From the NCBI GenBank assembly GCA_905221605.1, contig CAJNDS010000766.1, positions 1 through 64,000 on the forward strand: 64,000 nt of DNA, in the 5' to 3' direction. Made by a program: the position numbers and the translations under genes. Below are positions 7,034 to 34,386 of this stretch, in pieces. This DNA is from Symbiodinium natans (Eukaryota; Sar; Dinophyceae; Suessiales; Symbiodiniaceae). The notes beneath the pieces are model-generated. The model saw only the letters and a program-made list of their open reading frames with translations. It made no database searches and was not told where the DNA came from. Every line of letters begins with the position of its first letter. The first letter of the stretch is position 1.

Positions 7034-7035
7034 TA

Positions 7036-14202: not shown

Positions 14203-15197
14203 AGAATGTGCATTTTGTGGTTTCGGCTGTTTTTTCTGAGTGTGCATGTGCAAGAGTGTTGTGTGTGTGTGAGCATTGTGGTTGCAAAGTGGGTTGGTTT
14301 GCGGGTGCATGTCTTTGGCTTTAGTGTGCAAGGAAAGCTTCAGTGTGTAGGTAAAGGGTGGTCACGCATGGAGTTTCAGAAGTGACACCAAATCAAAAAA
14401 CAGTGTCTGTGTGTATTTACCTTGTTTTTTTCATTGTGAATGGGTGTGTTGTGGTTTTCGGCGTTTTGGCAGAGTCGTGTGTGTCATGGAGTGTGGTGTG
14501 TGTCATTATGTGGGTGCAAAGTGGCTTTCGTGGGTGGTGTGCGTTTGCGTGTATGTCGGCTGGGTTCTGCTGGCTGTTCAAGTGTGGAAGTGTGTAGGTG
14601 GTGAAAGGTGTGTGGATTTGGAGACACAAAAAGAGGGCAAGAAATCAACTCCAAAAGGTAGGGAAGCCGAAGGGACCTCCACAGTGCGAGAAAGATCACA
14701 CGCGAACAATGCAAGAGTGCTTTGTCTTGAATGCCAGCTAAAGACAAGTTTAGCAAAGCCAAGAACACGCGTATCGACGGCGTTTTTTGTTTTCTTGAGT
14801 GTTGATGCAAACAGTATCGAATGGAAAAAATCTTGTTTGTCTGTGAGTTGATTTCAATTATTATTGAACTCAAATGGGTTCCAAAAGCAGCTCAATTCTG
14901 GGCACCGAAAACGGGCCCTAGATTTTGGATTTCCTGTGTGAACATACAAGGCCACCCAGGTTGGAGCCTCAAATTGGAACCCAAGTTTAGGAGCCATTTT
15001 TGGGCCCAGTTGCGGCGTTTGTTTCACACACACGGGAAGCCAGATCTGGCTTTCACAGCTCCTCGTTGCGAGTAAAACAAATAAGCCTCTCAGTCGGTTC
15101 CAGTCTAAGTCTTGTGTCAGTCTTCCCCCAAAATTAGAACAGCAGGCAGCAAGGCGGCAAAGTGTGAACTTGTTTGGCACCGGAACTTTCTCTAACT
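14203..15197. repeat. Array unit 4: B-A (995 bp), right end of array
   Basis: Block B and a single block A (14684-15197). The stem of the A hairpin is mutated here (ATCACAC instead of ATCGCAC). Similarity stops at 15197 after CTCTAACT, and the flanking DNA from 15198 is unrelated. Confidence 0.9.
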
Positions 15198-15950
15198 GTA
15201 TGCAACAAGCCGGTCAAACCATGGAAAGCAGCGTGCTCCGATCCGCTCGGCAACCAGTCGGTTGCAACTCAAAAGCGCCAAACTCAGAGACAGTGCGGCC
15301 CCGCGGTGTTGACGAATACGACAAGGGCCGTCCCCGTTTCTCGACACATCTTCCTGGTCAAAAGTGCGTAACTTTTTCAGAGATGTGCAAATGTGAGCAA
15401 GAAGATGATCCACATTATTGGGCAGGCCGGAACATCTTAAAGGGATAGCCGCAAAGAAGCCTTGATTCCACGGGTGCCCAGAACAATTCAACTGCCGCAG
15501 CACCTAGAACTTACACAGTGTGCTTTACAGTGACCGTCCGACAAGCGTCCGCAACAAGCCCGGCACAGCCATGACGCCGGCAACAACGTAAAGCATTGTG
15601 ACAAGATCAACTTGTGCGATATACCCACAGGCTGCAGACAAAATCCTGTCGGCAGACTGGACCAACACCCAAATTGTCATGGCCGCGGCGGTGCGTTACG
15701 ATCAGGAGGTTGCGCAGTTTCATTGCTTGTCGGAGGGAGACCAGCAAAATAACCCAAGATGACTGCAAAGACACGTGAGCCCATGTTGCGAGACTCTCGT
15801 TGTCGAAGTGCTGTCGTCGTCCAAGGATGATGTCACTGGTCATTCGTTGGATATTGGAGTGACGTATGAAGGCATGTTGCGTGAGTTGAGTGCGATTGAG
15901 TCGCTTGCGGTTGGTGATGTGATTTGGCATGTTGACCCGCTGCAGAAGCG
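15198..15950. other. Unassigned spacer before copia fragment
   Basis: About 750 bp with only short frames (for example 15164-15448 plus, 15607-15981 minus). Part may be decayed upstream pol sequence of the copia element that follows, but I cannot show it. Confidence 0.35.
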
Positions 15951-17782: not shown

Positions 17783-18018
17783 CTTTAGGGTTTTTACCGG
17801 TTTTAGGGTTTTTAGGGTTTAGGGTTCAGGGTTTAGGGTTTAGGGTTTAGGATTTAGGGTTTAGGGTTTAGGGTTTTTGTGTTTTTAGCGTTTAGGGTTT
17901 AGGGCTTTTTGGGTTTTTAGGGTTTTTCGGGTTTTTAGGGTTTTTACGGCTTTTAGGGTTTAGGGTTTAGGGTTTTAGGGTTTAGGGTTTTAGGGTTCAG
18001 GGTTTAGGGTTTAGGGTT
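17783..18018 (+). repeat. Interstitial TTTAGGG telomere-type repeats
   Basis: About 235 bp of TTTAGGG units with variants (TTTTAGGG, TTCAGGG, GTTTTTAGGG). TTTAGGG is the plant-type telomere unit also found in dinoflagellates. The block ends six bases before the direct repeat that borders the retrotransposon, so the element lies right beside telomere-type DNA. Confidence 0.85.
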
Positions 18019-18023
18019 CCGTT

Positions 18024-18036
18024 TCTGTTTCAACAA
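18024..18036. other. Left target-site duplication of the LINE
   Basis: TCTGTTTCAACAA abuts the first spliced-leader base at 18037. The same 13 bases recur at 34374-34386. Confidence 0.85.
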
Positions 18037-18086
18037 CGTAGCCATTTTGGCTCAAGCCATTTTGGCTCAAGCCATTTTGGCTCAAG
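18037..18086 (+). other. Triple relic dinoflagellate spliced leader
   Basis: 18037-18056 reads CGTAGCCATTTTGGCTCAAG, the last 20 bases of the 22-nt dinoflagellate spliced leader. It is followed without spacing by two copies of its last 15 bases, CCATTTTGGCTCAAG (18057-18071 and 18072-18086). Truncated tandem leaders arise when a reverse-transcribed mRNA re-enters the genome, is transcribed, and is trans-spliced again at the AG inside GTAG of the old leader. Three copies imply at least three rounds. Such relic leaders are an established signature of recycled cDNA in dinoflagellates. Confidence 0.95.
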
Positions 18087-18223
18087 TTGCACGCAACAGC
18101 AGCGGGGATAGAACTTCTTGCTTAGTGCCCAGCCATGGCGGCAGATGTGAGTTCCCCCTGCGAGCGCTACTGGAGATGGTAATGGTTGTTTTTGGCAATT
18201 GTGACTGCCTCTGCAAAGGTGGT

Positions 18224-19419
18224 TCAAAGCAACACGAATTGGTTGATGTCCGATGCGCTGTGTGACATCCCCGTCCTTGCAAAACCGTTGACCTGGCCTG
18301 GCTTGCTCCATGCCTGGTTCAGCATTAATTTGGTTTGTGTGCCGACTCTCTTAATTAACAAGTTGCCGAAGACATTGATGCCCTGGCCCATGGCCTTTTG
18401 CCCAAGAGCGGTGCAATGCGCATGTCCGGCTGCCTGCCTGCATGTTTTCTGTTGCGTGTTCACGAGCTGTTTGATCAGCTCTGACAACGGCACACCAAGT
18501 GCGATGCTACCTGAAATTCACGTGTGTCTGCAGTTCGCGCACATTGTGTTCTCCAGGTGCTTAGCCAGCCTTGTGAACTCCTCCTGGATCGTGTGGATCC
18601 CGGTTCGCCTGTCAGTTTGTGCTGTGACAGTGATATCCCGGTTTGCTGGGTTGGCATTGTTGGAGACAGGGCATCCCTGGCTACATTTGCCTTTGCCTTT
18701 GCTGTCAAACCAGGTTTCCTTCGCATGCTCGCTTGCGTTTGCCTTCCTTTGCTGGACGAGGAGCCTTGCCAAAGTCCGCTCAAGCAGATTTGCCCAGTCT
18801 GTTTTGCTGACCGCCTCTCCGTATGTCCTTTTGGGATTCTGCAGCTTGTGGCCCGATTGGTTGCACCTACTCTCCTTGTCCGGCCCTGTGAGTGTCGTCA
18901 TAGGTGAAGGGTTTGCCCACCTTGCCGGATGGTCAGATTGGTGCTTGTTGCTCAGGCGCATCAGCGGGCGTTTGATCCGTCATCAAGGATGGCTGGCCTG
19001 CTCACTGGCTGTTGTTGCTGTCGGATGGGGGGATAAAACCCCTTTGCTGCCACAAAGCTGGTCTTCAGTGGGCCTGTGCTGGACTTCGTGCCCGTTTGCG
19101 TCGTGTTGGCCGCAGACCCCGCGCTGGTTTGTTTAGAGCCCTGCGTGCCCCTGCTCTGCAAGTTGCTGGACTCCTGGTCCTTACTGCGCGCACCGCTGGC
19201 CGAACTCGGTTGCCTCAGCGCCGTCTCCTGCCCCGGCGCACTGCCCTGCGTACCTTCTGGCTTGCCGTAGCCTTCCTTGCCTGGTGGTGTGTGTTTCTCC
19301 GACCTTTGCCTCAGCGGTGCAATGCCTTGCCCAGGCGTGTGAAAAAGGACCCCTTGCTTGGAGGTGGAAACACGGCCCACAGGCGGCGCCGCCCAGACAT
19401 CTCGCGCCAAGTCCAACAA
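18224..19419 (-). pseudogene. Antisense frames overlapping the LINE leader
   Basis: Three consecutive minus-strand frames (19419-18961, 18961-18518 and 18493-18224) have hydrophilic, Gln/Ser/Thr/Lys-rich composition, whereas the sense frames over the same DNA are implausibly hydrophobic. The first two meet in an overlapping TGATG. The last two share a frame and are separated only by a stop, so one reading frame with a shift and a stop would join all three. No family is recognised. They may be an antisense coding remnant carried in the element's leader, or a chance effect of base composition. Confidence 0.3.
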
Positions 19420-21672
19420 CTCTCAACAACTGTGGATCGCTTGGCTGCCGCCGTCCGAGACCTGCAGCAAGAGCGCGGCCGCCACGACCGGCGTCGCCGA
19501 CCCAAGCCTATTAAGCCCAAAATAAGTACCTCTCGGTTTAATAATAATAAGCCTTCCCCCGCTCCCGTTCCTGACCCGCCCCCAGAGTCTAGGAGTTTGT
19601 GGGAACGCTTACAACCATTCCTGGCAATGGCAGAGGCTGCAGAGGTGCCTCCATCTGATGCTGCCATTCGGGGAGCTTTGCTTCCTGTGCTGAAGCCCGA
19701 GTCACGGCCGGATTCCCGAACATGGGCCCCTAAGCCTAAGCCTCGCCCCAATAAGCCTAAACCCCAGCAGTCCCATTTCCAGCCTGCTAACGCTCCACAA
19801 GCTGAGCGGGAACCTAAACCCAAAGGCCCCCCTACATTTGCGCAGCTTGTGAAAGGATCCGCGCCGGCAAAGACCGAAGTCAAGTCGCCAAAGCCTCAGC
19901 TAGTTCAACACGGATGGGATGCCAAGTGCCGCTTTGTTTCAGCAAAGACCTTGCACTCTTTGCCTGATGAGCCTGGACCCTTGGTAGTGATTGTGCATAC
20001 CGATAGTGAACTGCAGGAAGTTAGGGATTGGGCTGCAGCCTCCAATCCTGCAAGACCAGTGAGCTGTGTGGATTTCTGCACTATGGATTGCCCCCAAGAT
20101 GTGGAACGTTGCGACGTGCTGGTTCGCTTCCCCAGCTCCCCGGCCATTGTGGCTAGGAAAGCTGCGCTGCATCTTATCACAAAGCATGGGCCAAAACCTT
20201 TTTCTTTGAAGCCGACAGAGAAATTCCAAGATGAGCAACGCTCTTCCGACAAAAACCAGCCTGAAACTGCAATTTTGCGTTTAACCCTTGCCAAAGAGTA
20301 TGCTGATCCGACCAGGTTCGGCGAAGCTCAGAAAAGTCCTCAGACTTTGCCCGCCCTGCTGGTGCCAGGCAGGGTTGGCAAAATTCTGCGCACCTTTGCT
20401 GTTGCCACTTATGAAGGGGAAATCACTTGTCTTTTGAGTGTTAAGGCTTCGGATGTTGATGGGTTCTTGAAGGATGCTCGCACCTTGTGTCCTGGAGGGT
20501 TCTTGGCACCGCAGCGCACTGCTACTGCGACCGTCCAGTGGATCAGCCGAGACCCCAAACAGAGCCCAACGCAGTACCTGGCGAAGGCCCGAGAAGCTGC
20601 TGAGGGTGTTCACGGGGCTTACCTAGCATATAGACCCGGAGGCCGAGCTAACATTGGGTTGAGAGCAGCCACGCCGCAAAAAGGTATAACGGGAGCCATT
20701 GCGCCTCGATGGACACTGGCGGGGGCGCCCAAGACCTGGCTAGAAGAAGACACTAAGGAGTGGTTGCAGAAACACGGGTTTAAGGAGGCTCAGCAAGTGC
20801 GCAGATCTTCTGCTGAAACGTGGTTTTTCCGAGCCTGGCCGGAGGAGGGCGCCGGAGCGGCAGTGTATGCCAGCGGACTTGTCGTGGCCCCAGCTGCAGC
20901 CCAGCATCGCAAAGTTCGCTCCCAAGCCTCGTCCACAGCTGCTCCAGTGTGGGGGGCGCGCCTCGTCCAACGCAAAGATTCGGAGCCTCAGCATCCTGTT
21001 ATTGAGGCCACTGTGCCACATGACGCTTCATCAATGGAAATCTCTGTGCCCGCCACAGAAATTGATGCATCGCAAGACGCGCGGGATAGATCCCGATCCC
21101 GGGAGCGCAAAAAGAACGCAGCGGAAGCAGCCAGCAACCCAACGCCAGCTGTGAGCAAGCCACTTGCTGGCCCCAAGCCGGCCATGCCCCATGCACGTCT
21201 CTACAATCCCCAAGAGTGTGGAGGCGAAGGGGATTGCGCTTACACGAGCTTGGCTACGGCAATGGCTGAGTTTTCTAAGTCAAAACCCGAGGCTAAGGAT
21301 TTGAGGCCCAAGGGCAAACTCCAGGCTTTCCTCAGGTGTGAGGCTGCAAAGTACATCCGGGCGAATCCTCAGATGTTTCAGCACCTTGACCCAAAAGTGG
21401 ATGGAACTCCGGAAATGTTGGCTACCAAAATTGCACGCTCAGGCACATGGGCTGACAGCATTTCCTTGTTTGCTTTGGCCCACAAGATAGGTGTGCTCCT
21501 TAGAATCTGGGCCTTTGACAAGAACCAACAGGTTTGGAAGCTGTACTTGGTAGGTCCTGAGCCTGAAGGGGCAACAACAAAGAAGCAAAAGAAGACCGGC
21601 TCGCACCCGACTGTTGTCTGGTTAAAGCTGGAAGATAGTGAAGCCGGTGGGCAACGACTGGCGTATGGATGA
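19012..21672 (+). CDS. LINE ORF1: coiled-coil, basic linker, OTU-protease-like domain
   Basis: An 886-codon frame. The true start is uncertain: the first 120 or so residues look non-coding (Leu/Arg-rich), and the convincing protein starts near residue 124 with a coiled-coil-like stretch (VQQLSTTVDRLAAAVRDLQQ). A Pro/Lys-rich linker follows (residues about 160-300), then an uncharacterised globular middle and an Arg/Ser-rich patch (DRSRSRERKK). The C-terminal 150 residues resemble an OTU cysteine protease: GGEGDCAYTSLATA places the candidate catalytic Cys at about residue 742, followed by GTWADSISLFALAHKIGVLLRI, which matches the conserved 'W-G-...-l-ALA...-I-I' region. The usual catalytic His near the end is not obvious, because the frame ends in EDSEAGGQRLAYG. 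A frameshift near 21636 may have cut it off. Confidence 0.65.
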   Translation: MLLSDGGIKPLCCHKAGLQWACAGLRARLRRVGRRPRAGLFRALRAPALQVAGLLVLTARTAGRTRLPQRRLLPRRTALRTFWLAVAFLAWWCVFLRPLPQRCNALPRRVKKDPLLGGGNTAHRRRRPDISRQVQQLSTTVDRLAAAVRDLQQERGRHDRRRRPKPIKPKISTSRFNNNKPSPAPVPDPPPESRSLWERLQPFLAMAEAAEVPPSDAAIRGALLPVLKPESRPDSRTWAPKPKPRPNKPKPQQSHFQPANAPQAEREPKPKGPPTFAQLVKGSAPAKTEVKSPKPQLVQHGWDAKCRFVSAKTLHSLPDEPGPLVVIVHTDSELQEVRDWAAASNPARPVSCVDFCTMDCPQDVERCDVLVRFPSSPAIVARKAALHLITKHGPKPFSLKPTEKFQDEQRSSDKNQPETAILRLTLAKEYADPTRFGEAQKSPQTLPALLVPGRVGKILRTFAVATYEGEITCLLSVKASDVDGFLKDARTLCPGGFLAPQRTATATVQWISRDPKQSPTQYLAKAREAAEGVHGAYLAYRPGGRANIGLRAATPQKGITGAIAPRWTLAGAPKTWLEEDTKEWLQKHGFKEAQQVRRSSAETWFFRAWPEEGAGAAVYASGLVVAPAAAQHRKVRSQASSTAAPVWGARLVQRKDSEPQHPVIEATVPHDASSMEISVPATEIDASQDARDRSRSRERKKNAAEAASNPTPAVSKPLAGPKPAMPHARLYNPQECGGEGDCAYTSLATAMAEFSKSKPEAKDLRPKGKLQAFLRCEAAKYIRANPQMFQHLDPKVDGTPEMLATKIARSGTWADSISLFALAHKIGVLLRIWAFDKNQQVWKLYLVGPEPEGATTKKQKKTGSHPTVVWLKLEDSEAGGQRLAYG

Positions 21673-22540
21673 GGCCGTCCCAGAGCACGCGGTGAGAGTC
21701 GATATGTCTAGCCAAGCACTTCGTTCCCAATTGTGCGGCGCTGGACGTGGTGATGCCCGGTCTCGCAAGTCCGGAGCAAGTGCAGATCATAGCTGTGCTC
21801 GCTTTCTAGGCCTGCCCTCGGCCGCCAAAAGCGCCAAATCCAGCAGGAGCTCTGTTTGTCGCCGTCTTTTGGGTTTGGAAGCCGTTGCTACGGACAGCGT
21901 TGGCAGTGTCTCTCAGGTTTTGGGTCTCTCCAAGCCTTCCAGATGTGGGCCAAAAACCTCCTGCAGTGACGCCCCGCCCCCGCTGGAGGAACATGCCGCC
22001 TTTGAAAACTATAAGGTTGGGGATCTGTATGTTTGTCAGTGCGGTTGGCGTCCACCTACCAAAGGACTCTCCAACAACCAGATTGCATATCGTGCAAAGA
22101 AACACTGGCGCCATTGTGTAGGGAAGCTCCCACCTAACGCTGCCTCTCAACAAGTCCGCCAGCGTGTTGCACGGGGCGCCTGGTGCAACCCTGTCAGGAA
22201 AAGAGAGCTGGCCAAGCAGCGGTATCTGACATGGTACAATAAGCTCAAAGGCAAATGGCGTGATGCTGCATGCGTGCCGGACTTTGACAACCCCTTGTCT
22301 ACCTCCGGTCCCAACCGCAGTGTTGTCATCCATCAGTACCGATGCAAGCATTGCTCCAGACAGAGCTCGGCCGCGGATTTCAAAAGATACCCGTGTTCTG
22401 CCCGTGACCGCGCACGTGGAATCAGCAAGCATTCTTGGATTACCAAGATGCAAGGGCCGGAAAGCTTACTGTTCGCGAGCGAATCGTGTTTTATCGCTTG
22501 CTTCCAAAAATGCCCTGTGAGAAAACGGTATGCCGTTTAG
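21638..22540 (+). CDS. LINE ORF1b: Cys/His-rich protein overlapping ORF1
   Basis: This frame is shifted relative to ORF1 and overlaps its end by 35 nt, with a GTG at 21638. It may be reached by frameshifting, by re-initiation at ATG 21665, or through an indel that split one larger ORF. Two zinc-binding-looking clusters are visible: YVCQCGWRPP followed about 20 residues later by KKHWRHC (C-C-H-C), and YRCKHCSRQ followed by YPC and KHSW. The last 26 residues come from the 148-bp duplicated segment starting at 22462, which replaced the original C-terminus and brought in the stop. Function unknown; nucleic-acid binding is a reasonable guess. Confidence 0.5.
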   Translation: MKPVGNDWRMDEAVPEHAVRVDMSSQALRSQLCGAGRGDARSRKSGASADHSCARFLGLPSAAKSAKSSRSSVCRRLLGLEAVATDSVGSVSQVLGLSKPSRCGPKTSCSDAPPPLEEHAAFENYKVGDLYVCQCGWRPPTKGLSNNQIAYRAKKHWRHCVGKLPPNAASQQVRQRVARGAWCNPVRKRELAKQRYLTWYNKLKGKWRDAACVPDFDNPLSTSGPNRSVVIHQYRCKHCSRQSSAADFKRYPCSARDRARGISKHSWITKMQGPESLLFASESCFIACFQKCPVRKRYAV

Positions 22541-22656
22541 TCTCAGTTTGAAGCCAAAAGTTTTCTTGATGCGTTATTGTTCCCATGCTCGACAATTGCC
22601 GGTTACATGTGCCATTTTGGCTCAAGCACGGGCTCCATCGGGCCGTGAAAATTTGT
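22462..22656 (+). other. Chimeric junction with internal spliced leader
   Basis: 22462-22609 is identical to 29566-29713. Then comes GCCATTTTGGCTCAAG (22611-22626), the last 16 bases of the spliced leader, then 22627-22656, identical to 29862-29891. In the other copy the leader is absent, and 148 bp ending in GACGTGCAG occupy its place. The leader therefore sits exactly where a trans-splice acceptor would have been used. Confidence 0.85.
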
Positions 22657-22851
22657 GCTGTGGCCCCTGTGTGCGTTGTTAAGCGCTTCAGGAAGAATCC
22701 CCCTGGGCAGTCTGCTTCGGTTAAGAGGGGAGGGCATGCCAACGCCCAGGGAGATGTTCCGGTTGAGGGTGAGTCCCCCATCCAAGCTCCAGAAGCTGTG
22801 GGATCTGTGCCTGGTGAGCCTAGCTACCAGGCTGATGGTGTCCCTAAAGAG

Positions 22852-25374
22852 ATGGGCAATGCTCAGTCATCACAGTCTCGTGATCCGCTACGTGGGAGTG
22901 ATCCCGTTGATTTGGTGCATGAGAAACCTGATGGCCAACCCGTGATCCCAGAGCCTAAATTCAGTGCACCGGTTGGCAGGGCGACCGGATCCCACGTCAA
23001 AGTAGGCCCCGCCTGTATATCGCAGGCTCGTGCAACGCTACGTGGGAGTGAAGCCGAAGATTTGGTGCCTGTGAAACCTGATGGCAAAAATTTAAGTGAT
23101 GGCGCGTACGTGGGGACCTCTCCTTCAGGCCAGCGTAGTGATGCATTGCGTGCAACCCGTGCTGTTTGGGCTTGGTCTTCTGGGGAATCTGGAATCCTTT
23201 GCGAGGCAGAGCGTCGTGCGCCTGAGCAAGTCGGGGTCCATCTGGGTGAGGGTGATGCTTTTGATCCCCCAGACAGACCTGTTGGGCAGCCAGTCAGGTA
23301 CGATGTGTCGTGCACACATCAACACGCTCCACCCAGCTCGCCCCATCAAGGTGTGGGAGATGCGGCGCCCGACCGTGTGAGTGCCTCCAAGGCTTCTTCA
23401 AGGGTGGTGACAACGAAGGCTAGGACCAAGGCCTCCCAAAGGGTTGAGCCCGAACATGATGTCAAGCTTGCGCCACCCGAATGCGTCTCCAGGCCCAGGG
23501 ATCACCCGCAGAGAGAGGTGAGCCCTGCCCCAAGTATTTCGGATGCTGAAACTGTGGGTGTGCCATATCCCGAGGTGCAGTTGGGCTACAATGAGAACCA
23601 GGTTGCCCGTGGTGGACCAGGCCACGGTTCTAGCGGACCTTGCGCCACGGGGATTAAGGCTGAAGCCCACAACAATTCCTTGCGTGCCAGCGAGGCCATC
23701 ACAGGGCCCACAGGCAATCCCCTTGGCAGCTCTGCTGAGTACGCACAGCAGGCTATGAGCTCTCAGCTTGAAACCCCTTCAGGTGCCATCAGCGTGTTCT
23801 CCCTAGATGTATCCAGAGCTCGTGAGCTCGTTGCGCCAAGTTCATCAGCCAAGACTCCAGCTGTGTCGAGAAGTTCGGGGCAGCGTGTGTCCGCCGGCGC
23901 AATGGTTGATGAGGTCAGACCGTTCCAAAGGCGGATTTTCATGGGGCCCACAGGTGTCCGTGATGTTCCTGGAAAGGTGTCTCCGCCTGGGAAACCGCGG
24001 GTGGTTACCCCCTTGAGTTCGCGGCCTGTCTTTACTGGTCCTGGCTCCATTCCCCGCAGGACTGAATGTTTCCCTAAGCGTGCCGCGGCCTACCCCTCCA
24101 GCGACAGGTCAGAAGCCCCAGTCCTGGAATGTGTGCATGGAGCATCAGCGTCCTTGCCTTCTGGTGATCGGCCGCTGCCTCCACGACCTCCTAGCCCTAA
24201 GCGTAAGAAGAAGGAGCCCGAAAGTACCAGCCGATCCAGTGGCTCTGCTTCGTCGGACGAGGGCATCACGCAGGATTGTGCAGAAGCCTTTCTGGCCAAG
24301 CTTGACGCTCGTCCCACGTGTTCTGCGGGTCATCCCCTGTTCTCCTTTGGGTCTCCTGAGCCTGGATGGTGGTGCAGTGCATGCAAACGCGTGTTCTCCA
24401 CGCGACGCTTGCTTTGGGGTTGTAGGGTCTGCGACTATGACATTTGCGGAAACTGCTTAGTCGATAGTCAAGGTGGCTCCTTCATCACACCGGCTCCGGT
24501 TCAGAATGTTGCTCATGAGGCAATCCCTGCTGCGCCGGTTCAGGATGCCGCTCAAGAGGCAATCCCCAGCAGTGCACAAGCATGGCCCTCAATGAAGCTT
24601 TTGCGTGCTTCAGGGGTTCTAACAGGCAACGACATGTTCCCGGATGACCTTCACCTGACCCTGGAAGTAAATGGTGAAAGCCTGTCAGTCTTGGGGTCGA
24701 GCAGGGCGCCAGGGCTCAAGGGAGGTTTCCGGAAAGTGTACCACCTTCGTGGTGAAGGGCCAGCTGCAAGCATTGTTGTGAAGCTCGCTGAAAACGAAGC
24801 CGACAATGTCAATGAGGTTAGGAGTGCTGCTGCGTGTCCAGCAGCCTTTACCCGCATCTTCGGCAGCGGCTCCATTTGGGTGTCCCTTGGAGCAGACGGT
24901 TTGTGCCGAGCCCATTATGTCATCACGGAACGCGTGGTTCCGTTGACTGCTCTGTTGGATGGCCCAACTCTGCCCTCCACGGCATGCACCTCTTTGGCGC
25001 TCCAATGTTGTCGTGTTGTGTTCCGGGCAACTCTTGCAGGTATCAAGTGTAGGGACCTTGGACAGAAGCAGTGGGGCCTCAAGGTCCCGCCAAACTTCAA
25101 ATTCCAAGATGAGATCTCCCTGCAACAAGTGCGCGAAGGCTTGACAGGTGAAGCGTTTCACCTCGTCATCCTTGATGCCAATTGTTGCCTTCCGGTGCCC
25201 CAGGCGAGCCTCTTGGGGCCACGCAAAATGGCCTCATTTTGGGCCCTTCAAACAAGGTTGGTGGGTGCACCCGCTAGCGAGCGGCTCCAAGCGTTTATCC
25301 GCGCTCATAATTTCAATGCCCGCAGTTGTCTTTCCGCTTTGACGCGTGATCACGTTACGGGGCTTTGTTCTTGA
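22852..25374 (+). CDS. LINE accessory ORF: ZZ-like zinc finger and kinase-like domain
   Basis: 840 codons from the first in-frame ATG after the internal spliced leader. The frame is open from 22585, but the part before 22627 is leader and duplicated DNA. The N-terminus MGNAQSSQS has the form of an N-myristoylation signal (Gly2, Ser6), a weak hint. Residues about 10-480 are disordered-looking, rich in Pro, Ser and Gly. Residues 490-535 form a zinc finger with Cys pairs (CSAGH, WWCSACK, WGCRVCDYDICGNC) like ZZ or C1-type fingers. From residue about 610 there is a kinase-like pattern: a Gly-containing loop (LKGGFRKVYHLRG), an invariant-like Lys in IVVKLAENE (residue 644), a hinge-like VITERVVPL, CRDLGQKQW (Asp 735) and VILDAN (Asp 775). 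The Asn of the catalytic loop and the DFG glycine are missing, so it may be an inactive or unusual kinase. Ends at TGA 25372-25374. Confidence 0.6.
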   Translation: MGNAQSSQSRDPLRGSDPVDLVHEKPDGQPVIPEPKFSAPVGRATGSHVKVGPACISQARATLRGSEAEDLVPVKPDGKNLSDGAYVGTSPSGQRSDALRATRAVWAWSSGESGILCEAERRAPEQVGVHLGEGDAFDPPDRPVGQPVRYDVSCTHQHAPPSSPHQGVGDAAPDRVSASKASSRVVTTKARTKASQRVEPEHDVKLAPPECVSRPRDHPQREVSPAPSISDAETVGVPYPEVQLGYNENQVARGGPGHGSSGPCATGIKAEAHNNSLRASEAITGPTGNPLGSSAEYAQQAMSSQLETPSGAISVFSLDVSRARELVAPSSSAKTPAVSRSSGQRVSAGAMVDEVRPFQRRIFMGPTGVRDVPGKVSPPGKPRVVTPLSSRPVFTGPGSIPRRTECFPKRAAAYPSSDRSEAPVLECVHGASASLPSGDRPLPPRPPSPKRKKKEPESTSRSSGSASSDEGITQDCAEAFLAKLDARPTCSAGHPLFSFGSPEPGWWCSACKRVFSTRRLLWGCRVCDYDICGNCLVDSQGGSFITPAPVQNVAHEAIPAAPVQDAAQEAIPSSAQAWPSMKLLRASGVLTGNDMFPDDLHLTLEVNGESLSVLGSSRAPGLKGGFRKVYHLRGEGPAASIVVKLAENEADNVNEVRSAAACPAAFTRIFGSGSIWVSLGADGLCRAHYVITERVVPLTALLDGPTLPSTACTSLALQCCRVVFRATLAGIKCRDLGQKQWGLKVPPNFKFQDEISLQQVREGLTGEAFHLVILDANCCLPVPQASLLGPRKMASFWALQTRLVGAPASERLQAFIRAHNFNARSCLSALTRDHVTGLCS

Positions 25375-25642
25375 GCCGGCTTAGGTGCAAATATGTTATG
25401 CACTTTCTGCACCACGGATTCGTTGGGCGCCGAGGCGCTTGTCTGGAAGCAGTGCAAAGACTGCCTGGCGATGAGGATGCAGTTCACATTGACGAAAAAG
25501 GTAATGAGTGGGCGCTCACACATGTGTTTGCGCATGTTTATGATGTCATGAGACGAGCAATGTCTGCTCAGCCAAGGGGCTATGAGGGTCTCATGAAGCG
25601 GCACATGGTGCCTTTGTATGAGCCAAGGGGCTGTCATACAAC

Positions 25643-26366
25643 ATGGCCATGGTGCCATATGTCCGTTGCACCATGGGTGCTCGTGCAAGGATGAAGGCTC
25701 AAAGCCATGTTCATGGACTCATGTCTCATGTTAAGCTCTTGCTGTGTGTTACTTTTTGGCTTTTCCCACCATGTGAGTTCGTGATTTTTCTAGTGCCATG
25801 TGGTCTGCAGACAGTGCCTGAAGGTTTTGAAGTAGCAGTGCATGCCATGTCTGCTTCACCTGAGGTGGCATGTGGCCTCTTGAACGACGCCTTCGACGTC
25901 CACCAAGACGCCCCGCTTGTGCGGGCAATATCTTTGGGACACCAACCAAGCATTCCAAATTACATGCTATGCATGCGACACAAGTGGCTTGCTCCCTTTG
26001 GAGCCCAGGCAAGTCTCCAGGCTTTTGTCCACCGGATACCATCCACGCATTGCACTAATATGCTGGTGCTCCGCATGCCGCCCCGAGACCGAGACACAAG
26101 GCCCTCTGCCGATGTTTGCAGGCCAAAACCACAAAGTGTTCATGCCTGGCCGTCGCGTCCATGGCCTCTGCGCAACTTGCCCAGCGCTTTCACATGTGAA
26201 CCTCCTTGTTCAGTCTCCTAGAGACATCCCTGGACAGGTGTTCACTGAACATACCAATAAGTTCAGGGGCCATTTACGACGTTTCCACAGACCTTCACTC
26301 AGCTGTCCTGCCGGCCTGAAACCTTGTACTGTGGATGACATGGCTTCAGCCCCCCCCTCGGGGTGA
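25643..26366 (+). pseudogene. Decayed LINE ORF of unknown function
   Basis: Two overlapping frames read as one broken protein. Frame 25643-26221 is plausible at residues about 58-150 (VPEGFEVAVHAMSASPEVAC, then HKWLAPFGAQASLQAFVHRI). The continuation is in the other frame from about 26090 (MFAGQNHKVFMPGRRVHGLC, then HTNKFRGHLRRFHR) to the stop at 26366. No family is recognised. Confidence 0.3.
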
Positions 26367-27440
26367 GCCATTCTACGGGGCATGTCGCGTGCGCTTGCCC
26401 AGCGCCGTCATCATTGTCAGCTGCGAGAGTCTTACATCCAAGGCCTAATGTGGCCCAAGCGAACCCCGTCTGGGTATGTTGGATTTTCCCTCGGTGCTCC
26501 AGTCTCGTTACAAACCGCCCTGGACTTCTGGTTGGGCGCTGCGCCTGGTCAAGCTGCGCGTGTTTGCGTTTTATGCTGGTTGCGTTGACCGCTACGGGCC
26601 TGTTCCACCGTATGGCACGAACTTACCAGGGGCCCCACGTGAGCTATGCCGCCATGCGAGTTTGCCCCGAGTGGCCATGCCAAGTAATAAGGCACCACGG
26701 CTCAAGGTTTTTCCTGCCGCAGATGGTGTGTGGCCTCGGGGCCTAACAGAGGCTCTGTTCAATGGGAGCTCGATGCTCACACGGCCCGGTGCACGGCCCA
26801 TGCACAATGCGTCTTCATTGGACCAGTTCTGTCGTGTTTCCTCGTTCCGGTCTAGATGTTGGTCAGACCTGGCCTGCAACAGCTGCGTTGTGGGTGCTAC
26901 ACGTGCGCCGTGGATCGGGTCAGGGTTACGGTCTGCTTCAAACGTCTACACGTTGCTACGTTTGTAATTAAGTCATGGGTGGCCCTTCGCAACGCCTTGA
27001 CTCTTGGGCCGGGCCGACGTCATCGTGTCCTCCGCCGACACTGTTCTCGGACACCATCTGCCTCCTGCCAGGGCCTTATTCGGTGTGCCGGCGTCCAGCC
27101 TGCAGGGGGCAGTGCGTTGCGCGCGCCCGCTCACTTCCAGTGCACTGTCGGCCCCCCGCCCTCCCGACCCCATTTCCAGCCTTCCACTGCTGTCCAACTT
27201 AGCCGGCCGGCCTTGCGCGGCCGCCGGCCTGTGCTCTGATTCGGTTAAGTGGGGTGATGTCTGGTTTGAGTGGTTTCTGGCTACTTAAGCGTGCATGTTT
27301 GGGATGCCTGGGGGGGCTCAAGCCGGTGATTGCCTGGTTGTGGTCTTTGGCCGGTGTTCGTCTGGTTTGTGTTCGCCGGGTTCCCTTGCCATTCTGGGCG
27401 CCCGACAATCTAAGCCTGCAGTGCCTGGTTAGTGCTCGCC

Positions 27441-27746
27441 GGTCCTCCAGGCCTGACACACGGCTTGCGCGTCGGGAGCATTGTTTGGTTGTTAGCCGGT
27501 TCTACTTGCCCTACTTGCCGTTATGGGCGCCCGCCCTTCTAACCTGTGGTGCCTGGGCAGTGTCAGCCGGATCCCCTGACTTGTCACATGGCAGGTCCTC
27601 CAGGCCTGACACACGGCTTGCGCGTCGGGAGCATTGTTTGGTTGTTAGCCGGTTCTACTTGCCCTACTTGCCGTTATGGGCGCCCGCCCTTCTAACCTGT
27701 GGTGCCTGGGCAGTGTCAGCCGGATCCCCTGACTTGTCACATGGCA
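27441..27746. repeat. 153-bp tandem duplication
   Basis: Two identical consecutive 153-bp units start GGTCCTCCAGGCCTGAC (27441 and 27594). A diverged third unit is visible just upstream at about 27385-27440. The period is divisible by three, so the open frame repeats a 51-residue block. Confidence 0.95.
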
Positions 27747-28931
27747 GACTCGTCCTGGGCATGTTATAGGTTGGCCCGCCGGGGCTAGTGGGTCTGACGA
27801 TTGACATGCTCTCCCTGACTCTTTGATATGCGGTCGGCGCTGCCGAGACTGCCAGACCAAACGCCTGAAAGTAATTTTAGCTTAAGCGCCCCTCGCCCCC
27901 CACTGCTCCTTCCCAATGGGTGCTTGGAGAGTTGGGTGTCAAGAGTGCAACCCTGAGGACGTTGATGTGTGCTGTGCCGCTATGCGGCACATTGGGGTTG
28001 AGAGCACTGTACCATAAGCCATGGTATGCTATTGCCTGGAGTAATCTTGTGTGGGTTGTGCTCGTGCCCGTTACGATGCAACAGAGTCGTAATTAGTGCT
28101 TTGAGTCTGGGGGTGCCAATTTCCGGGGTGAGCTTCTGTGGGTTGTGCTCTGTCCCAGAGTTGCTGTCTTCCACCGCTTGTGACGGTCATGTTGGTTTCC
28201 TTTAAGGGTTCCGTCTTGAATCCAGTGCAACACGCCTCCCGGGAGCCCGTGGAGGACGGAGAGCTCTATCAGTCAGCCTAAGACTGAGCCAACTAAGTGT
28301 TCATTCCCCTCATTGCGTCATCTCCCTGAGGCGTGTGAAATTGAGCTGAATAGTACAGTGGCTCGTTCCCCTTCCTCCTGTGTTGAGTCAAGAACCTCCG
28401 TGCTGGAAGCCTACTGTGTGATCGAAGAGGCTTATGGACCAACGCCTTTCAGCTGGGGAACCCACCTTTGCCGGGGTGATTGTCTGAGTTCGCACTTGCC
28501 AGGACAACTTCTTTGAGGATTAGTCCCTGGGCCGGCGCAAGCACTCTCTGGGTCCTGTGACCCCCCGCATGTAGGCTGTATTAACCTGTGTGGTGCGGAC
28601 AGGGATGCTGGCGGCCTAAGTGCCTCTGGAGCACTCGGTGGCGGCCTGGGTTCGTGACACGCGTTCACTTATGTAAGGTTTACCCGGGCCCCAATTTTAA
28701 TTGGCACACTTGGACTCTTCAGATAAAGAGGTGCGTTGTGGCCCGCAAGTTTCATGATGTGCGGGTTGGGCAGCACCTGCGTACTTTGGTTATACACGCT
28801 CTCAGCAGTACTGGGCTGCCTTGGAGTTTGAGCCTCGGGGATGGGGGATTCTCTCTGTGGGTACCCCGGGCTTGTTTCTGCTGGTTTCTTGCTAAGGTTA
28901 ACTGTGGTCTCGACTTCGTGCTTATGCAGCA

Positions 28932-29054
28932 GGCCCCCCCCCCCTTTGTGTACTGCACACTTGTATTGGGGCCTTCCAAATGAATGAAGTGGTGCCTGGA
29001 CGCAATACCAATGCCCAGGGGGGGGGGGAGGGGGGGACACTGCAGCCCCCCCCC
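28932..29054. repeat. Homopolymer C and G runs
   Basis: Three runs of ten or more C or G lie within about 120 bp (near 28933, 29020-29037 and 29047). Opposite runs could pair, and such runs are error-prone in assembly. Confidence 0.8.
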
Positions 29055-29435
29055 CGCAGCTCAACACCGAATAGACTGACAGGTACCAGCTTTGGCCTTG
29101 CGTGGGGAAGTCTGTGTGCATCGCGTTGGCGCAATCTTAAGGCCAGACCCGTAGGGAGGTCTTCCCCCTCCCGGTGTTCGCAAGGCTGCGCCTCCAGCCT
29201 AGTGCACCCGTTCCATTGAGGGCAAATGCCTTACGGGTGGGATAGTGTGGACTGCCTCATGGAATGGTGACTGCCGCTTGGGGCAGGGGAAGTCTAGAGA
29301 CTGTGCTCTAAGCTGTCTTACACTTGATGGCAGCCACCAAGGTAGTTCGGTTAATAGGGGGCTTGTGTTTTTGTAGTTGGTGTTGCGCACGTTTGGTAAG
29401 CGTGTGCACTGACGCAATGTGCATAGTACTGTCCA

Positions 29436-30079
29436 TGAGGATCTTTGATTCGCCCACCGATTGAAAAGGAGGAATGCTTGGGACTGTCGACGGTTTTGAG
29501 CTTTGTGCAATGTCCTAGGTTTCGGACGGTGCTTTTGGGTTCAAACCAATTTTGGCACAAGCGATAAGCTTACTGTTCGCGAGCGAATCGTGTTTTATCG
29601 CTTGCTTCCAAAAATGCCCTGTGAGAAAACGGTATGCCGTTTAGTCTCAGTTTGAAGCCAAAAGTTTTCTTGATGCGTTATTGTTCCCATGCTCGACAAT
29701 TGCCGGTTACATGCTTTGCAAATTTCCTTGATCAGCAGATTACATGGTTGCAGTGGCTGTATGCAGCTTGTGCAATGTGCCTTGGTGTGCAACATGCCAT
29801 GCTTTGTGAAGCTAAAGGGCGACTGATGTCTGCAACTTGATGTGTGTTCCTTGACGTGCAGCACGGGCTCCATCGGGCCGTGAAAATTTGTCCCGCCCAG
29901 CCCACCCTGTGTATGCCGCTGCGGGGCCCGCGCTCTGCGGCCGCGTCTGAGGATCTTTGATTCGCCCACCGATTGAAAAGGAGGAATGCTTGGGACTGTC
30001 GACGGTTTTGAGCTTTGTGCAATGTCCTAGGTTTCGGACGGTGCTTTTGGGTTCAAACCAATTTTGGCACAAGCGATAA
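29436..30079. repeat. 132-bp direct repeats flanking a 380-bp segment
   Basis: 29436-29567 and 29948-30079 are identical, starting TGAGGATCTTTGATTCGCCC and ending GGCACAAGCGATAA. Each contains CCAATTTTGGCACAAG, which differs from the spliced-leader end by one insertion and one substitution and may be an old relic leader. The enclosed segment carries the second copy of the 22462 junction. Just inside, CAAGCGATAA and TTATCGCTTG form a 10-bp inverted repeat around 29558-29605. Confidence 0.85.
29843..29891 (+). promoter_or_regulatory. Inferred trans-splice acceptor inside the LINE
   Basis: TGTGTTCCTTGACGTGCAG ends at 29861 and is followed by CACGGGCTCCATCGG. At the paralogous junction (22626/22627) the spliced leader is joined to the same CACGGGCTCC. 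The AG at 29860-29861 is therefore the likely acceptor at which leader addition takes place. This is inferred from comparing the two copies. Confidence 0.7.
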
Positions 30080-30243
30080 AATCCTTGGCCCATCAGGAGT
30101 GCATGCGCCAGTGTGCGCAGCGCTACAGAGCAAAACGTGGCGGCGGCAAAGCTTCCTAGGCAAACCTAAGTAAAAAGCGGAAAGCTGCCGGGTCTTGACT
30201 AGGACCTGGGGGAAGCTGCGACCATCATCATTGTCCAGATCCC

Positions 30244-31815
30244 TTGTTAGGGGGAGCACGGGCCACAGGTGAGCCTTCCAGCCCAGTTCTGCTAACTGTC
30301 AACGTTACGGCGCTGACTCATGCTAGGCTACTCACTGTGCTTGAGGAGGCCAAACGGGTGAGGGCTTCCTTTGTGGCGCTGCAAGAAACGAGACACCGTA
30401 AAGCCGGTTGCCCCTGGGCATCTCGAGCCTTGGCTGGTTTCGGCTGGAATTCGCTCTGGAGCGAGCCGCCTCCGCCTCTGCATTCCGGCTGCCCGCGACA
30501 AGGTGGCACTGCAATACTATGGCAAAGTAGCGATCACTGCGCACCTTTCCGACCCCCTGTGCAAACTGAGCCCTTGCATAGGGTTTGTGGGGTTGTGTTC
30601 AGGGAGTTTGCTGTTGTCAGCTTGTATGGTCCTGCCGATAGGCCTGACCCACCTCTAATCGCCTCCATTCTGCGCCATGCAGCAGAATTGCAGCGCCCAG
30701 TCCTTGTGTTGGGTGATTTCAATTGGAAGCCAGCCTATCAGCCTCTGACTGCGGCGGTAGGTGCTGACATGTTTCCAGTCATTCCAACTGTGCTCGGTTC
30801 TCAGGCCGCCCCAACGCGCTGCTTGGGTCTCGGAGAGGGTCTGTGTCGCAGTGCAGAGACTTCAGCAAATGATCTTGCGGGCATTCCGCACCACAAAGCT
30901 GTCTGTTTCAGAGTGGGTAGGGAACTTGCAGGCTCCCCTTCCCCCCCTTTGCCTCGGTTTAGGTATAGGCGAACTGCTTCCTATAAGTGGTCCCTTTCCT
31001 ACCCCGTGTCCCTAAGTGATTCCCAACTCCAGGTTCTCCGTGAGGCCTCCCAGGATTCGCAATGCCCGAGGGATAGCCTCCTCGAACGTTTCCAGGATTG
31101 GCATCGGAGGGCGGAGGCAGCATGTGAGGCCGCCGTGAACCTGGGCCTAGCTTCCTGTGAAAGGTCCGGTGAGCGCAAGAAAGGCTCTGTCCCCACAGTC
31201 CGGCCTTGTACTCAAAGCCCCTCCGTGCGTCATGGTGAGCCTGTGACTTTGCGCTGCTGGCGCCGCCTGCATCGAGCCGCAGCTGAACAGACTCGCCATT
31301 TCGGGGAGGGAGCAGCCCTGACCAGATCTCAACAGCGTCATTGGAGGGCGCAGCTGGGGCCCGCTGGTGATATACCGCAGTGTCAGGGTGAAGCCTTAAA
31401 AAGGGCTTCTCTGGTTGTCACCGCTGAGGAACAGGCCATGAGTCGTGAAAGTCAGCTACGGTGGCGTCGGAAGTTCTCCATGGCAAATGCAAGTGTGTTG
31501 AAAGTCGCGGCTGATGCGCTGCGACCGGACTGTCCGTCCAACGGGTGTGCTCGTGTTGATTCCGCCTCCATGACTCACGAGTGGGCTCCACGCTGGATGG
31601 CAACTCACCCCGACCCCGAAGCCGCGTGGGGAACTGTTTTGGAAAAGTCAGCTTTTTCACCGCCGCCTGTAGCCACTTTCGCCGCAACATGTAACGGAGA
31701 GCCTCCATGGGAGCCCATCACTAATGAAGAGTTTTTGGCTGCTATCCAAAAAGGCAAGGGCTGTGCAGGGTTCGACGGTTGCTATACTTCATGCTTGCAT
31801 GACGTTGCCTTATAG
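30244..31815 (+). CDS. LINE ORF2 part 1: APE-type (EEP) endonuclease and linker
   Basis: Residues about 15-250 match the endonuclease/exonuclease/phosphatase fold of non-LTR elements: VNVTAL near the start, FVALQETRH (catalytic Glu in the QE motif), TAILWQSSDHC, VVSLYGPADRP, VLVLGDFNWKP (GDFN active site) and, near the end of the domain, AGIPHHKAVCFRV in the place of the SDH motif. A basic linker with many Arg/Gln follows. Just before the break, KGKGCAGFDG is the phrase that normally precedes the RT domain. The frame then leaves coding sequence after about 31789 and stops at 31815. The upstream start is uncertain (TTG 30244 is the leftmost possibility). The protein nicks target DNA to prime reverse transcription. 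Confidence 0.8.
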   Translation: MLGGARATGEPSSPVLLTVNVTALTHARLLTVLEEAKRVRASFVALQETRHRKAGCPWASRALAGFGWNSLWSEPPPPLHSGCPRQGGTAILWQSSDHCAPFRPPVQTEPLHRVCGVVFREFAVVSLYGPADRPDPPLIASILRHAAELQRPVLVLGDFNWKPAYQPLTAAVGADMFPVIPTVLGSQAAPTRCLGLGEGLCRSAETSANDLAGIPHHKAVCFRVGRELAGSPSPPLPRFRYRRTASYKWSLSYPVSLSDSQLQVLREASQDSQCPRDSLLERFQDWHRRAEAACEAAVNLGLASCERSGERKKGSVPTVRPCTQSPSVRHGEPVTLRCWRRLHRAAAEQTRHFGEGAALTRSQQRHWRAQLGPAGDIPQCQGEALKRASLVVTAEEQAMSRESQLRWRRKFSMANASVLKVAADALRPDCPSNGCARVDSASMTHEWAPRWMATHPDPEAAWGTVLEKSAFSPPPVATFAATCNGEPPWEPITNEEFLAAIQKGKGCAGFDGCYTSCLHDVAL

Positions 31816-32297
31816 TTGCACCAAAACCAAAATTGTTTTTTTTGGAGAGTATCCTAAGCAATTTTGGGCCAGAACAAAAGTTTGGAATTTTAATATTCAC
31901 CAGCATTTTGCTTTTGTATGCATGACACATTCTTGGGACATGTGTTGGTCAGGATTGTTTAAATTTGTGATTGAAATTTCGCTTGCATCCCAAAGCTTGG
32001 CTCAGCAGTCAACAGAGCAAGGAAATTTCTTTCCCACCCTCCCAACCCGGGGAGATGAACGGGGCCGACACATCAGTTGTGTCAGAGGGCCGATGGCACT
32101 ACATGTGCCATGGTGCAGGCCATTTAAAAAAGTGGCATGACGTACTTTCCCCACTTTCTCGGCGTGCCGATGAAGAAAAAGTGCGCATGAGTTGGAGTGT
32201 GAAGTGTGATGAGCTCTACTTGCGTGATTTGGGAATCCGATATTTTTAATGTTGAGTTCAACGCGGTTTCCCCTCGAGATTGAATTTTGGATAATTC
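31790..32297. other. AT-richer interruption between endonuclease and RT
   Basis: Coding sequence ends just after GFDG and resumes in another frame with VARLRAEVIPLRMKDF at about 32301. The roughly 508 bp between are richer in A/T (long T and A runs) than the flanking ORFs and have stops in all sense frames. It could be an inserted element or an unspliced intron; I see no clear terminal repeats or target duplication. Confidence 0.7.
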
Positions 32298-34199
32298 TCT
32301 GTAGCCCGCCTGCGGGCAGAAGTTATACCATTACGGATGAAGGATTTTGTTCTGGTTGGGGCAGCTATAAGGACCGCAACAGAGTTGGCCGGTCTCAGTG
32401 CTGCGTGCCCTTGGCTTGTGTCGGAGCTGACTATGCTTTTTAACGCATGCCTGCAGCACGATGTTGACGCGCGAGAGTTGCAGATGCTGCGGGACCACAC
32501 TTTTGCCTGGAAGGTGGTCGGCATACCAAAACGGGGAGAGGAGGCTACCAGACCCATTGCTGTAACAAGTGCATTGGTCAGAGCCTTTAACAAGTCCCTT
32601 CTTGCACGCTGTCCTCCAGCACCTGAGGGTCAGCTGTGCGGGGTCCCGGGAGCAACCGTTGTTTCCGCCACCCTCAAGTGGCTTGATGTGCAAGCCTGCA
32701 GAGGCGCTGAAATGGACCTTCGGAAAGCCTTTGATAGTGTTAACCTGAAACTTGCCAACGCTGCGGCAAAAACTGCTGGAGTCCCCAAACCCGTGCGTGT
32801 CTACATGCAGAATCTAGTTTGGACCGCTCCTCGTTTCTGCACTGTGTCAGGTTCGCCCCCGCCGTATGCCATCACGGCGTCTTGTGGACTCCCTCAAGGA
32901 GACCCTTGCAGCCCCAGGTTTCTTTCCTATGTCTTAGGCCCTTGGTATAAGCTTATGCGTATGGTTCCTAACATTGATGCCTTCCTTTATATGGATGACC
33001 GCAGTCTCACAGATGAAGGTGAGAGCGACAGCCTCGGTGAAGCGCTTGATCTCACGCGTTGGCATGATGAGAAGTTGGGGCTGACTGAGCACCTTAAAAA
33101 GAGACAAATGTGGTCTTGTGGTGCTGGGGGGGGCAGAGGCGCTGTCGAGCATCTTGGCATCACGACCTGCCCGGGCTATAGTATCCTCCCAGAGCTGAGA
33201 GTTGCGGCAGATGACTTGTGCGCTTTGGCCGCTCAGGTGCAACTGCTTCCAGGTGGAGCCGAGGTAAAGCTGAGCCTGCTTGCAGGCATTGTGATGCCAA
33301 AACTCCTGTGGGCCGCACCTCTGATGCCGGAAGTGCCAGAGAAGGTGGTGAAGGCCTTCTTCTACGCATTTCGTGGTCATAACACGTGGTGGTGCAGAGC
33401 CCGAGTTTGGGCGGACTCAATCCACTGTCACCCAAAATATGCGGCGGCAGTGAGGTGCTTGAGAACTGCGGCCGGCTTTGCGAGTCATGTCTGTAACCCT
33501 GTCTTTTGGAAGTGCGTCCGTCACCACGCACGTGTCCTTAAGTTAGAAGTTGCAGAACAGCAGCAGCCTGGGATGCTCTGGTTGAAGCCAGGACCTTCCG
33601 CCGACCCCCGCCTAATTGCTGCAGTTAGGCGTGCGGCTGCAGTGTCAGGCGCTGCCGGAAGCCTGAACTTCAAGCCGGACGCAGATGAAGGACACTGCCT
33701 TCGAGTTGCGGCTCGAGTTTGTGCTTTAATGTCTTACAGCACAACCCGCCAAGATGTGGAACTCATCGAAAACGTGGATGTTGAGCTGCACAGCCATCCT
33801 GCTTGGAAGTCTTGGTGTAGCAGTCTCAATGATCGCGACAGAGGCTTCCTTGCTATCTGGCGCGGCGGTGCCGCCAAGTCAGCGACCAGGCGACACTGGC
33901 GCCCGGGGCGGCAGTCATTCCAGCATGACAAGTGTGTGTGCGCTGCTTGTGGGTATCATGCTGGCTCCACCCATCATCTGTTTGCCGCCTGTCCGAGATT
34001 CGATCAACTCCGTCAGGAACTCAGCCGCGAGCATCGATTGCCGGCAAACTGGTTTCAAAGCCTGCCGAGGGTCACTTCCAAGTCAGGTTGGGTTTGCTTG
34101 TCGGCGCATAACAGCATTGACCGCCGAGCTTCGATGCAAGTGGCTGCGTGCAAGCTTGGCATTCAGATTGTTCCTGCGGGTGGGGAAGTCGGTGACTGA
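32298..34199 (+). CDS. LINE ORF2 part 2: reverse transcriptase with terminal CCHC finger
   Basis: Reading resumes at about 32298. Motifs in order: VVGIPKRG with RPIAVTSALVRAFNK, EMDLRKAFDSVN (first catalytic Asp), SCGLPQGDPCSPRF, FLYMDDRSL (YMDD active site, near 32990), LTEHLKKRQMW and LGITTCPG, all classical RT blocks. Most LINE enzymes have F/YADD, so YMDD is unusual for the class. Near the C-terminus CVCAACGYHAGSTHHLFAAC is a Cys-Cys-His-Cys finger common at the end of LINE ORF2 proteins. No RNase H or restriction-like endonuclease is apparent. Ends at TGA 34197-34199. Confidence 0.85.
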   Translation, partial: SVARLRAEVIPLRMKDFVLVGAAIRTATELAGLSAACPWLVSELTMLFNACLQHDVDARELQMLRDHTFAWKVVGIPKRGEEATRPIAVTSALVRAFNKSLLARCPPAPEGQLCGVPGATVVSATLKWLDVQACRGAEMDLRKAFDSVNLKLANAAAKTAGVPKPVRVYMQNLVWTAPRFCTVSGSPPPYAITASCGLPQGDPCSPRFLSYVLGPWYKLMRMVPNIDAFLYMDDRSLTDEGESDSLGEALDLTRWHDEKLGLTEHLKKRQMWSCGAGGGRGAVEHLGITTCPGYSILPELRVAADDLCALAAQVQLLPGGAEVKLSLLAGIVMPKLLWAAPLMPEVPEKVVKAFFYAFRGHNTWWCRARVWADSIHCHPKYAAAVRCLRTAAGFASHVCNPVFWKCVRHHARVLKLEVAEQQQPGMLWLKPGPSADPRLIAAVRRAAAVSGAAGSLNFKPDADEGHCLRVAARVCALMSYSTTRQDVELIENVDVELHSHPAWKSWCSSLNDRDRGFLAIWRGGAAKSATRRHWRPGRQSFQHDKCVCAACGYHAGSTHHLFAACPRFDQLRQELSREHRLPANWFQSLPRVTSKSGWVCLSAHNSIDRRASMQVAACKLGIQIVPAGGEVGD

Positions 34200-34373
34200 C
34201 CCAGCCTGTCAGTGAGGCCCTCTCAGGGCACTGCCTGCTGCTCAGGCTTTGCTTTCTCGCCGCCCTTTTCTCAATAAGGGTTGGTGGGTCTTTTGCAGTA
34301 CCCGCCTTCATGTTTCGCCGTGCAGTTCAACCCAAGGTTTGATCCATAGTCAGGTTACTGCACTTCACACACA
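34200..34373 (+). other. LINE 3' untranslated end
   Basis: 174 bp between the RT stop and the right direct repeat, containing AATAAGGG but no poly(A). It ends in CACTTCACACACA. Confidence 0.65.
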
Positions 34374-34386
34374 TCTGTTTCAACAA
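34374..34386. other. Right target-site duplication of the LINE
   Basis: TCTGTTTCAACAA, identical to 18024-18036. Confidence 0.85.

Follow-up and report, generated by a model that had tools for sequence, protein, structure and literature searches.

The window analyzed here comprises bases 1–64000 (64,000 nucleotides) of contig C766 of Symbiodinium natans, in the 759-Mb assembly that served for the genome searches. It contains, at positions 18037–34373, a long interspersed nuclear element (LINE) that encodes an apurinic-endonuclease-like (APE-type) domain and a reverse transcriptase (RT), and whose 5′ terminus is, on DNA evidence, a trans-spliced leader of the dinoflagellate type (DinoSL). All parts of the element described for the window lie on the plus strand. 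The insertion is enclosed by a 13-bp target-site duplication, TCTGTTTCAACAA, with the left copy at 18024–18036 and an exact right copy at 34374–34386. The left copy ends one base before the leader start at 18037, and the right copy begins 174 nt beyond the RT stop codon (34197–34199). The leader occupies the position directly inside the left copy as an array of three tandem units of 20, 15 and 15 nt in the known relic register. The youngest unit, CGTAGCCATTTTGGCTCAAG (18037–18056), is short by the first two nucleotides, since the full DinoSL is the 22-nt sequence DCCGTAGCCATTTTGGCTCAAG (as given in PMC7245778). Two older relics, each in the 15-nt form CCATTTTGGCTCAAG, follow at 18057–18086, and a 5′ untranslated region (UTR) of 48 nt (18087–18134) separates the array from the ATG of the first open reading frame (ORF1) at 18135.

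The preliminary description of this locus had reported a direct repeat that abuts the leader and recurs beyond the 3′ end of the LINE, and our analysis confirmed it. Within the window, TCTGTTTCAACAA occurs exactly twice without mismatch, and four further matches carry two mismatches. When 15 anchor positions (18030–18044) were compared with the interval 18100–64000, the longest match was 13 nt and ended at 18036. In a grid control using 500-bp stretches at the same offset, a match of at least 13 nt was reached at one of 6543 sampled positions, which is the duplication itself as judged by its place on the grid, and at 0 of the other 6542. These results bear on the possibility that the 13-bp repeat is coincidental, the true LINE borders lying elsewhere and the leader stemming from an unrelated processed gene. 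Random anchors in the leader-bearing loci surveyed below (9-kb scan, n = 14058) reach at least 11 nt in 5.4% and at least 13 nt in 3.7% of cases, mainly in internally duplicated loci, and this rate gives such a coincidence some room. The empty grid speaks against it, as does the agreement of both ends with the ORF1 start and the RT stop, and we therefore regard a chance repeat as very unlikely. The 1.5-kb pieces at the two ends of the element share no exact word longer than 11 nt, and no long terminal repeats (LTRs) are therefore present.

The body of the element was delineated by homology to related proteins. The first part of ORF1 (18135–22461) starts with ATGGCGGCAGATGTG, and its frame continues to about 19136 except for one early in-frame stop. 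This part has a hydrophobic N-terminus and further frame changes, and it shows similarity to OTU-like proteases (Pfam OTU, E 8e-4, under the Pfam cut-off). Among the matches listed, the only relative of this upstream frame is P0016, a 1453-aa protein with an OTU protease domain, which matches 19009–22471 by tblastn and whose N-terminus, MAADV, consists of the same five residues as the ORF1 start in the window. The C-terminal end of ORF1 was located at approximately 30079–30162, where the frame resembles the P0016 C-terminus in a by-eye comparison. ORF2 comprises an APE-type endonuclease part at 30244–31779 (Pfam Exo_endo_phos, 27.2 bits, cut-off 24.5), which corresponds to residues 1–468 of P0003, and an RT part at 32373–34199, ending in the stop codon (Pfam RVT_1, 53.3 bits, cut-off 29.6). 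P0003 holds both domains in one protein, and P0002 is 68% identical to the RT part of the window; the matches listed include 14 homologous RT proteins, the window's own among them. The 3′ UTR extends over 34200–34373. The RT domain, the apurinic-endonuclease-like domain upstream of it, the lack of LTRs and the 13-bp target-site duplication identify the element as an APE-type LINE.

Two later insertions interrupt the LINE. The larger one (22462–30078, within ORF1) shows exact repeats of 148, 132 and 32 bp. It is regarded as a later insert because similarity to P0016 breaks off at 22471, and the C-terminal part of that protein is matched again from about 30079. Another element is present in it twice, head to tail; the two units share 148 and 132 bp at their ends and terminate in AA, and a 929-aa ORF as well as a relic leader lie inside the first. 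The smaller one, of about 0.6 kb (~31780–32372, within ORF2), is marked by a break of the P0003 alignment at residue 468 and its resumption at residue 470. Since both segments are later insertions, the LINE itself measures about 8.1 kb. The copy in the window is dead, with decayed and broken frames. Accordingly, the preliminary description was right to see a LINE with a leader in this 16.3-kb interval, and overstated its case in calling it complete and multi-ORF. A multi-ORF LINE of 16.3 kb was rejected because the P0016 homology is interrupted and the 929-aa ORF has relatives of its own. The internal leader at 22612–22626 was likewise dropped as the head of a second LINE cistron, as it is located within the nested insert.

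Taken together, the borders and the coding content indicate that 18037–34373 is very probably an APE-type LINE that entered the genome as cDNA copied from a trans-spliced mRNA, subsequently received two insertions and then decayed, and that the 5′ end of such LINEs is the leader, renewed in each cycle. That the inserted cDNA began with the spliced leader, as had been proposed, is upheld by the repeat ending at the leader start, by the ORF1 start 48 nt behind the array and by the MAADV start in common with P0016. The same preliminary account had called this proven by the target-site duplications; they support it, and "proven" is too strong a word for DNA evidence alone. A different history would be that the leader is the older component, the LINE having inserted by chance downstream of a leader-bearing retrogene relic or a spliced-leader gene. 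Leader relics are frequent in the genome (313 sites, see below), which favors such a coincidence to some extent. However, the duplication stands in front of the leader rather than in front of the 5′ UTR, which already contradicts it, and there are 48 nt between the leader array and ORF1. Together with the equal leader distances and the strand bias found in the genome survey, these observations make an older leader highly improbable.

The leader-headed arrangement extends to several further LINEs of the genome, as supported by a survey of leader sites. The exact query GTAGCCATTTTGGCTCAAG, consisting of GTAGCC and the 15-mer, identified 313 genome sites (163 forward and 150 reverse), while its reversed control identified none in the genome. 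The sample comprised 24 leader sites in 23 loci (L010–L032), each of about 9–10 kb and taken in listing order; it corresponds to 24 of the first 29 places among 100 listed of the 313, restricted to sites with GTAG before the 15-mer. When LINE ORF2 proteins were used as a tblastn panel and self-matches were excluded, same-strand similarity was detected in 8 of the 23 loci (L011, L012, L014, L016, L019, L021, L024 and L028), and antisense similarity in 0 of the 23. The two-sided sign probability of this 8:0 bias is 0.008, and the bias argues against chance insertion of LINEs behind older leaders. RVT_1 scored over the Pfam cut-off in five loci (L011, L014, L016, L021 and L028). Pfam was run on selected ORFs of the leader strand. 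Because the tblastn panel had been drawn partly from sense finds, an antisense Pfam control was also run, in which none of the 20 longest of the 39 antisense ORFs of at least 200 aa matched anything. A profile built from alignment A1 matched L016 as the sole locus, and the other RT loci came from the Pfam scans. The sample also contains loci that resemble host retrocopies, encoding ubiquitin (L020), PUF (L017) and ABC1 kinase (L015). Since all sites were picked by an exact leader, the perfection of the leader is no evidence, and it is the constant position of the leader that counts.

This constancy is evident in individual loci. L011, L019 and L021 form one family in which homologous coding blocks lie at matching distances behind the leader (853/859, 1112/1111 and 1124/1106 nt), and the ORF2 products of L011 and L021 are 39.6% identical over 995 aa. 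Equal spacing at three same-family loci is a further argument against leaders that predate the LINEs. L016 begins with a full 22-nt leader, behind which two frames are open: one of 1398 aa, containing an OTU domain (39.2 bits), and ORF2, of 1334 aa, containing APE and RT domains. It therefore has the same architecture as the window element, its OTU stretch being 22% identical to that of the window. In L014, a 14-bp repeat ends at the leader, and its second copy immediately follows an A run that lies about 500 nt beyond the RT stop. The earlier suggestion to search for other leader-headed copies with their own direct repeats thus gave leader-headed LINEs, with such a repeat in L014 and mostly weak repeats elsewhere. 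As random anchors often reach such lengths, a 9-nt repeat at L016 is no evidence, and the repeat at L014 counts mainly by its position.

Several observations weigh against our interpretation. The N-terminal 280 residues of P0016 align weakly with the window (at best 31% over 58 aa), so that the shared ORF1 start rests on five residues and on position. The window copy ends in CACTTCACACACA without a poly(A) before the right copy of the duplication, while L014 has an A run; a poly(A) or simple-repeat 3′ tail is common in APE-type LINEs and not universal. In the genome search with the window leader and 5′ region (364 nt; 40 of 70 candidates scored), only the window itself was recovered in full, and 41 other matches are leader arrays, none of which extends beyond query base 54. 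With no second 5′ copy at the DNA level, the window 5′ end is not comparable within its own family, and the refuting condition named in the preliminary description, copies that continue upstream of 18037, neither refuted its reading nor helped it. Among the surveyed loci, the RT matches of L012 and L024 are under the Pfam cut-off, and that of L019 covers a short stretch. The direct repeats at the other loci are mostly weak relative to the random-anchor rate, with 6–7 nt at L012, L021 and L024 and simple repeats only at L011, L019 and L028. L024 also has complex repeats, in which the start of the 5′ UTR occurs twice (414–471 and 8759–8816) and a 256-bp flank occurs twice (1–256 and 9699–9954). 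L007 has 5′ blocks in common with L011 (114/103, 297/307 and 750/751), and no ORF2 match was found in the 6.5 kb further downstream, so it was left out of the LINE count. Finally, in L012 an 82-nt part of the element's 5′ UTR recurs upstream of the leader (418–599), which a template jump or a nested insertion could give.

The arrangement in L012 would fit the alternative that the LINE enzyme, on arriving at a truncated RNA end, switched to spliced-leader RNA or a host mRNA and thereby produced a chimera. LINE enzymes are able to jump between templates, as mammalian L1 does with U6 RNA, and this capacity speaks for the alternative. However, the junctions lie at the exact exon end CTCAAG, and no intron sequence of spliced-leader RNA was present in the sites inspected. 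Repeated splicing is what yields three units in relic register, the leader is placed just before an ORF1 start instead of at random points of truncation, and it is present in several families. Template jumping is thus very unlikely, to about the same degree as a coincidental repeat.

How a leader-headed LINE might be propagated can be outlined as follows. We infer the source of the promoter, the cap, the use of the relic AG and the copying by the LINE's own enzyme. Transcription of the LINE would start upstream, from a promoter outside the element, which is the boldest part of the proposal. The spliceosome would then join the capped 22-nt DinoSL to an AG acceptor that directly precedes the 5′ UTR of the LINE, and the trans-spliced RNA would be translated as a capped mRNA. 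The LINE proteins would make a nick in the target, prime the copy at the 3′ end and continue it as far as the 5′ terminus of the RNA, so that the leader is included. In the next cycle, the CCGTAG within the leader of the new copy could act as the acceptor, leaving a 15-nt relic behind the fresh leader. Because the array contains three leader units, at least three rounds of trans-splicing would have occurred in the lineage of the window LINE. A broader proposal, to which we give somewhat less than an even chance, is that a guild of dinoflagellate LINEs lacks a 5′ promoter of its own and rides on trans-splicing, with upstream transcripts being cut at the leader to capped, full-length LINE mRNA. 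The 5′ end would repair and mark itself in each cycle, because each new copy carries the leader together with its own acceptor, and the same enzymes might explain the thousands of leader-tagged retrogenes of the host.

Additional observations concern the nested insert and the surroundings of the window LINE. In the first unit of the nested insert, the leader at 22612–22626 is preceded by 148 bp of the unit's own upstream sequence. In the place of this relic leader, the second unit has genomic sequence ending in GTGCAG (to 29861), and an identical 30 nt follows in both, so that the two units read like trans-spliced and unspliced versions of one 5′ end side by side. The ORF of about 915–929 aa at 22627–25371 has a weak match to C1-type zinc fingers. 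Besides itself, it has 13 relatives among the matches listed, three of which are named Symbiodinium natans (69–73% identity), and the window copy is without the N-terminus MALPGSAAS common to these relatives. Degenerate TTTAGGG repeats lie beside the insertion at 17784–18018, and 5123–15199 contains several families of repeats, tandem as well as dispersed, whose units measure about 0.5–3 kb.

Further leader sites show features of other kinds. (GA)n or telomere-like CCCTAAA repeats lie directly 5′ of the leader at L004, L007, L010, L011, L019, L021, L026 and L030, and at L013, L028, L029 and L032; they could reflect a target preference or, for (GA)n, the tail of a preceding element. L033 and L034 have neither an ORF2 match nor a GA tract, and they gave no 3′ end for L021. 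CTTGAG, the complement of the leader's CTCAAG, occurs at offsets 31–35 behind the leader in L004, L006, L010 and L030, so that at these loci the leader may take part in an RNA structure at the 5′ end. L013 (1003–6928) combines a leader with a 1535-aa ORF and a weak match to tyrosine recombinases (22.9 bits, cut-off 27.1), and it adjoins CCCTAAA repeats; it is perhaps a leader-headed element of another class. In L001, a 7157-bp contig of a viral catalogue, and in L025, AT-rich sequence runs twice into a full DinoSL, at spacings of 147 bp and 1109 bp. The second leader of L001 continues into G+C-richer sequence with an ATG soon behind. These two are possibly leader-tagged cDNAs captured elsewhere, or chimeras. 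One scan of the viral contig catalogue found no tandem leader, and of the 102 pattern matches in another, for LINE RT relatives, none was confirmed.

The closest known counterparts are the DinoSL relic retrogenes, the recognition of which is credited to Slamovits and Keeling 2008 (via PMC7245778, PMC6050394, PMC3229502 and PMC12014239). As described in the available text of three of these sources, leader-bearing cDNA reinserts, the AG of CCGTAG serves as the splice site for the next leader, and a 15-nt relic stays behind (PMC7245778, PMC6050394, PMC3229502). The window LINE resembles these retrogenes in having at its 5′ border a full or near-full leader followed by 15-nt units, from which repeated splicing and reinsertion are deduced and which count the rounds. 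In contrast to those host genes, the RNA copied here is not a host gene mRNA but encodes LINE proteins, an RT and an endonuclease, and a target-site duplication encloses the insertion. Relic leaders on host retrogenes have long been known. A LINE described as starting with the leader was not found in the literature searched, which leaves out most subscription papers. In the text consulted, the type of element behind dinoflagellate retroposition is stated to be unknown, with LTR elements favored (PMC6050394), and only Ty1/copia-like sequences were found in expressed sequence tags (PMC3942190). Leader-headed LINEs show that non-LTR elements use the same RNA form as the leader-tagged retrogenes, and they allow a direct test of the enzyme source. 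Among RNA-virus-derived inserts of Symbiodiniaceae, DinoSL was reported nearby in 6 of 26, and LINEs were proposed as the enzyme source (PMC10235124). In the account given there, LINEs are mere neighbors, whereas in the present case the leader-tagged insert is a LINE.

Two other systems join retroelements to trans-splicing. The ta-TRIM elements of Echinococcus likewise interact with a trans-splicing acceptor; as presented in the available part of the report, they are of the LTR type and their transcript competes with the leader for an acceptor in a host gene (PMC4558846), unlike the window LINE. The L1Tc/ingi elements of trypanosomatids are also LINEs, and every mRNA of their hosts is provided with a spliced leader. 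According to the portion of the source consulted, they possess their own Pr77 promoter together with a ribozyme and produce unspliced, translatable transcripts (PMC8190864), whereas LINEs of the window type carry the leader at their 5′ end. Leader-headed LINEs would also answer how an element of this kind can hold its 5′ end constant while having no promoter itself, a solution opposite to the one described in trypanosomes. In single copies, the relic units can be read as a tally of past cycles.

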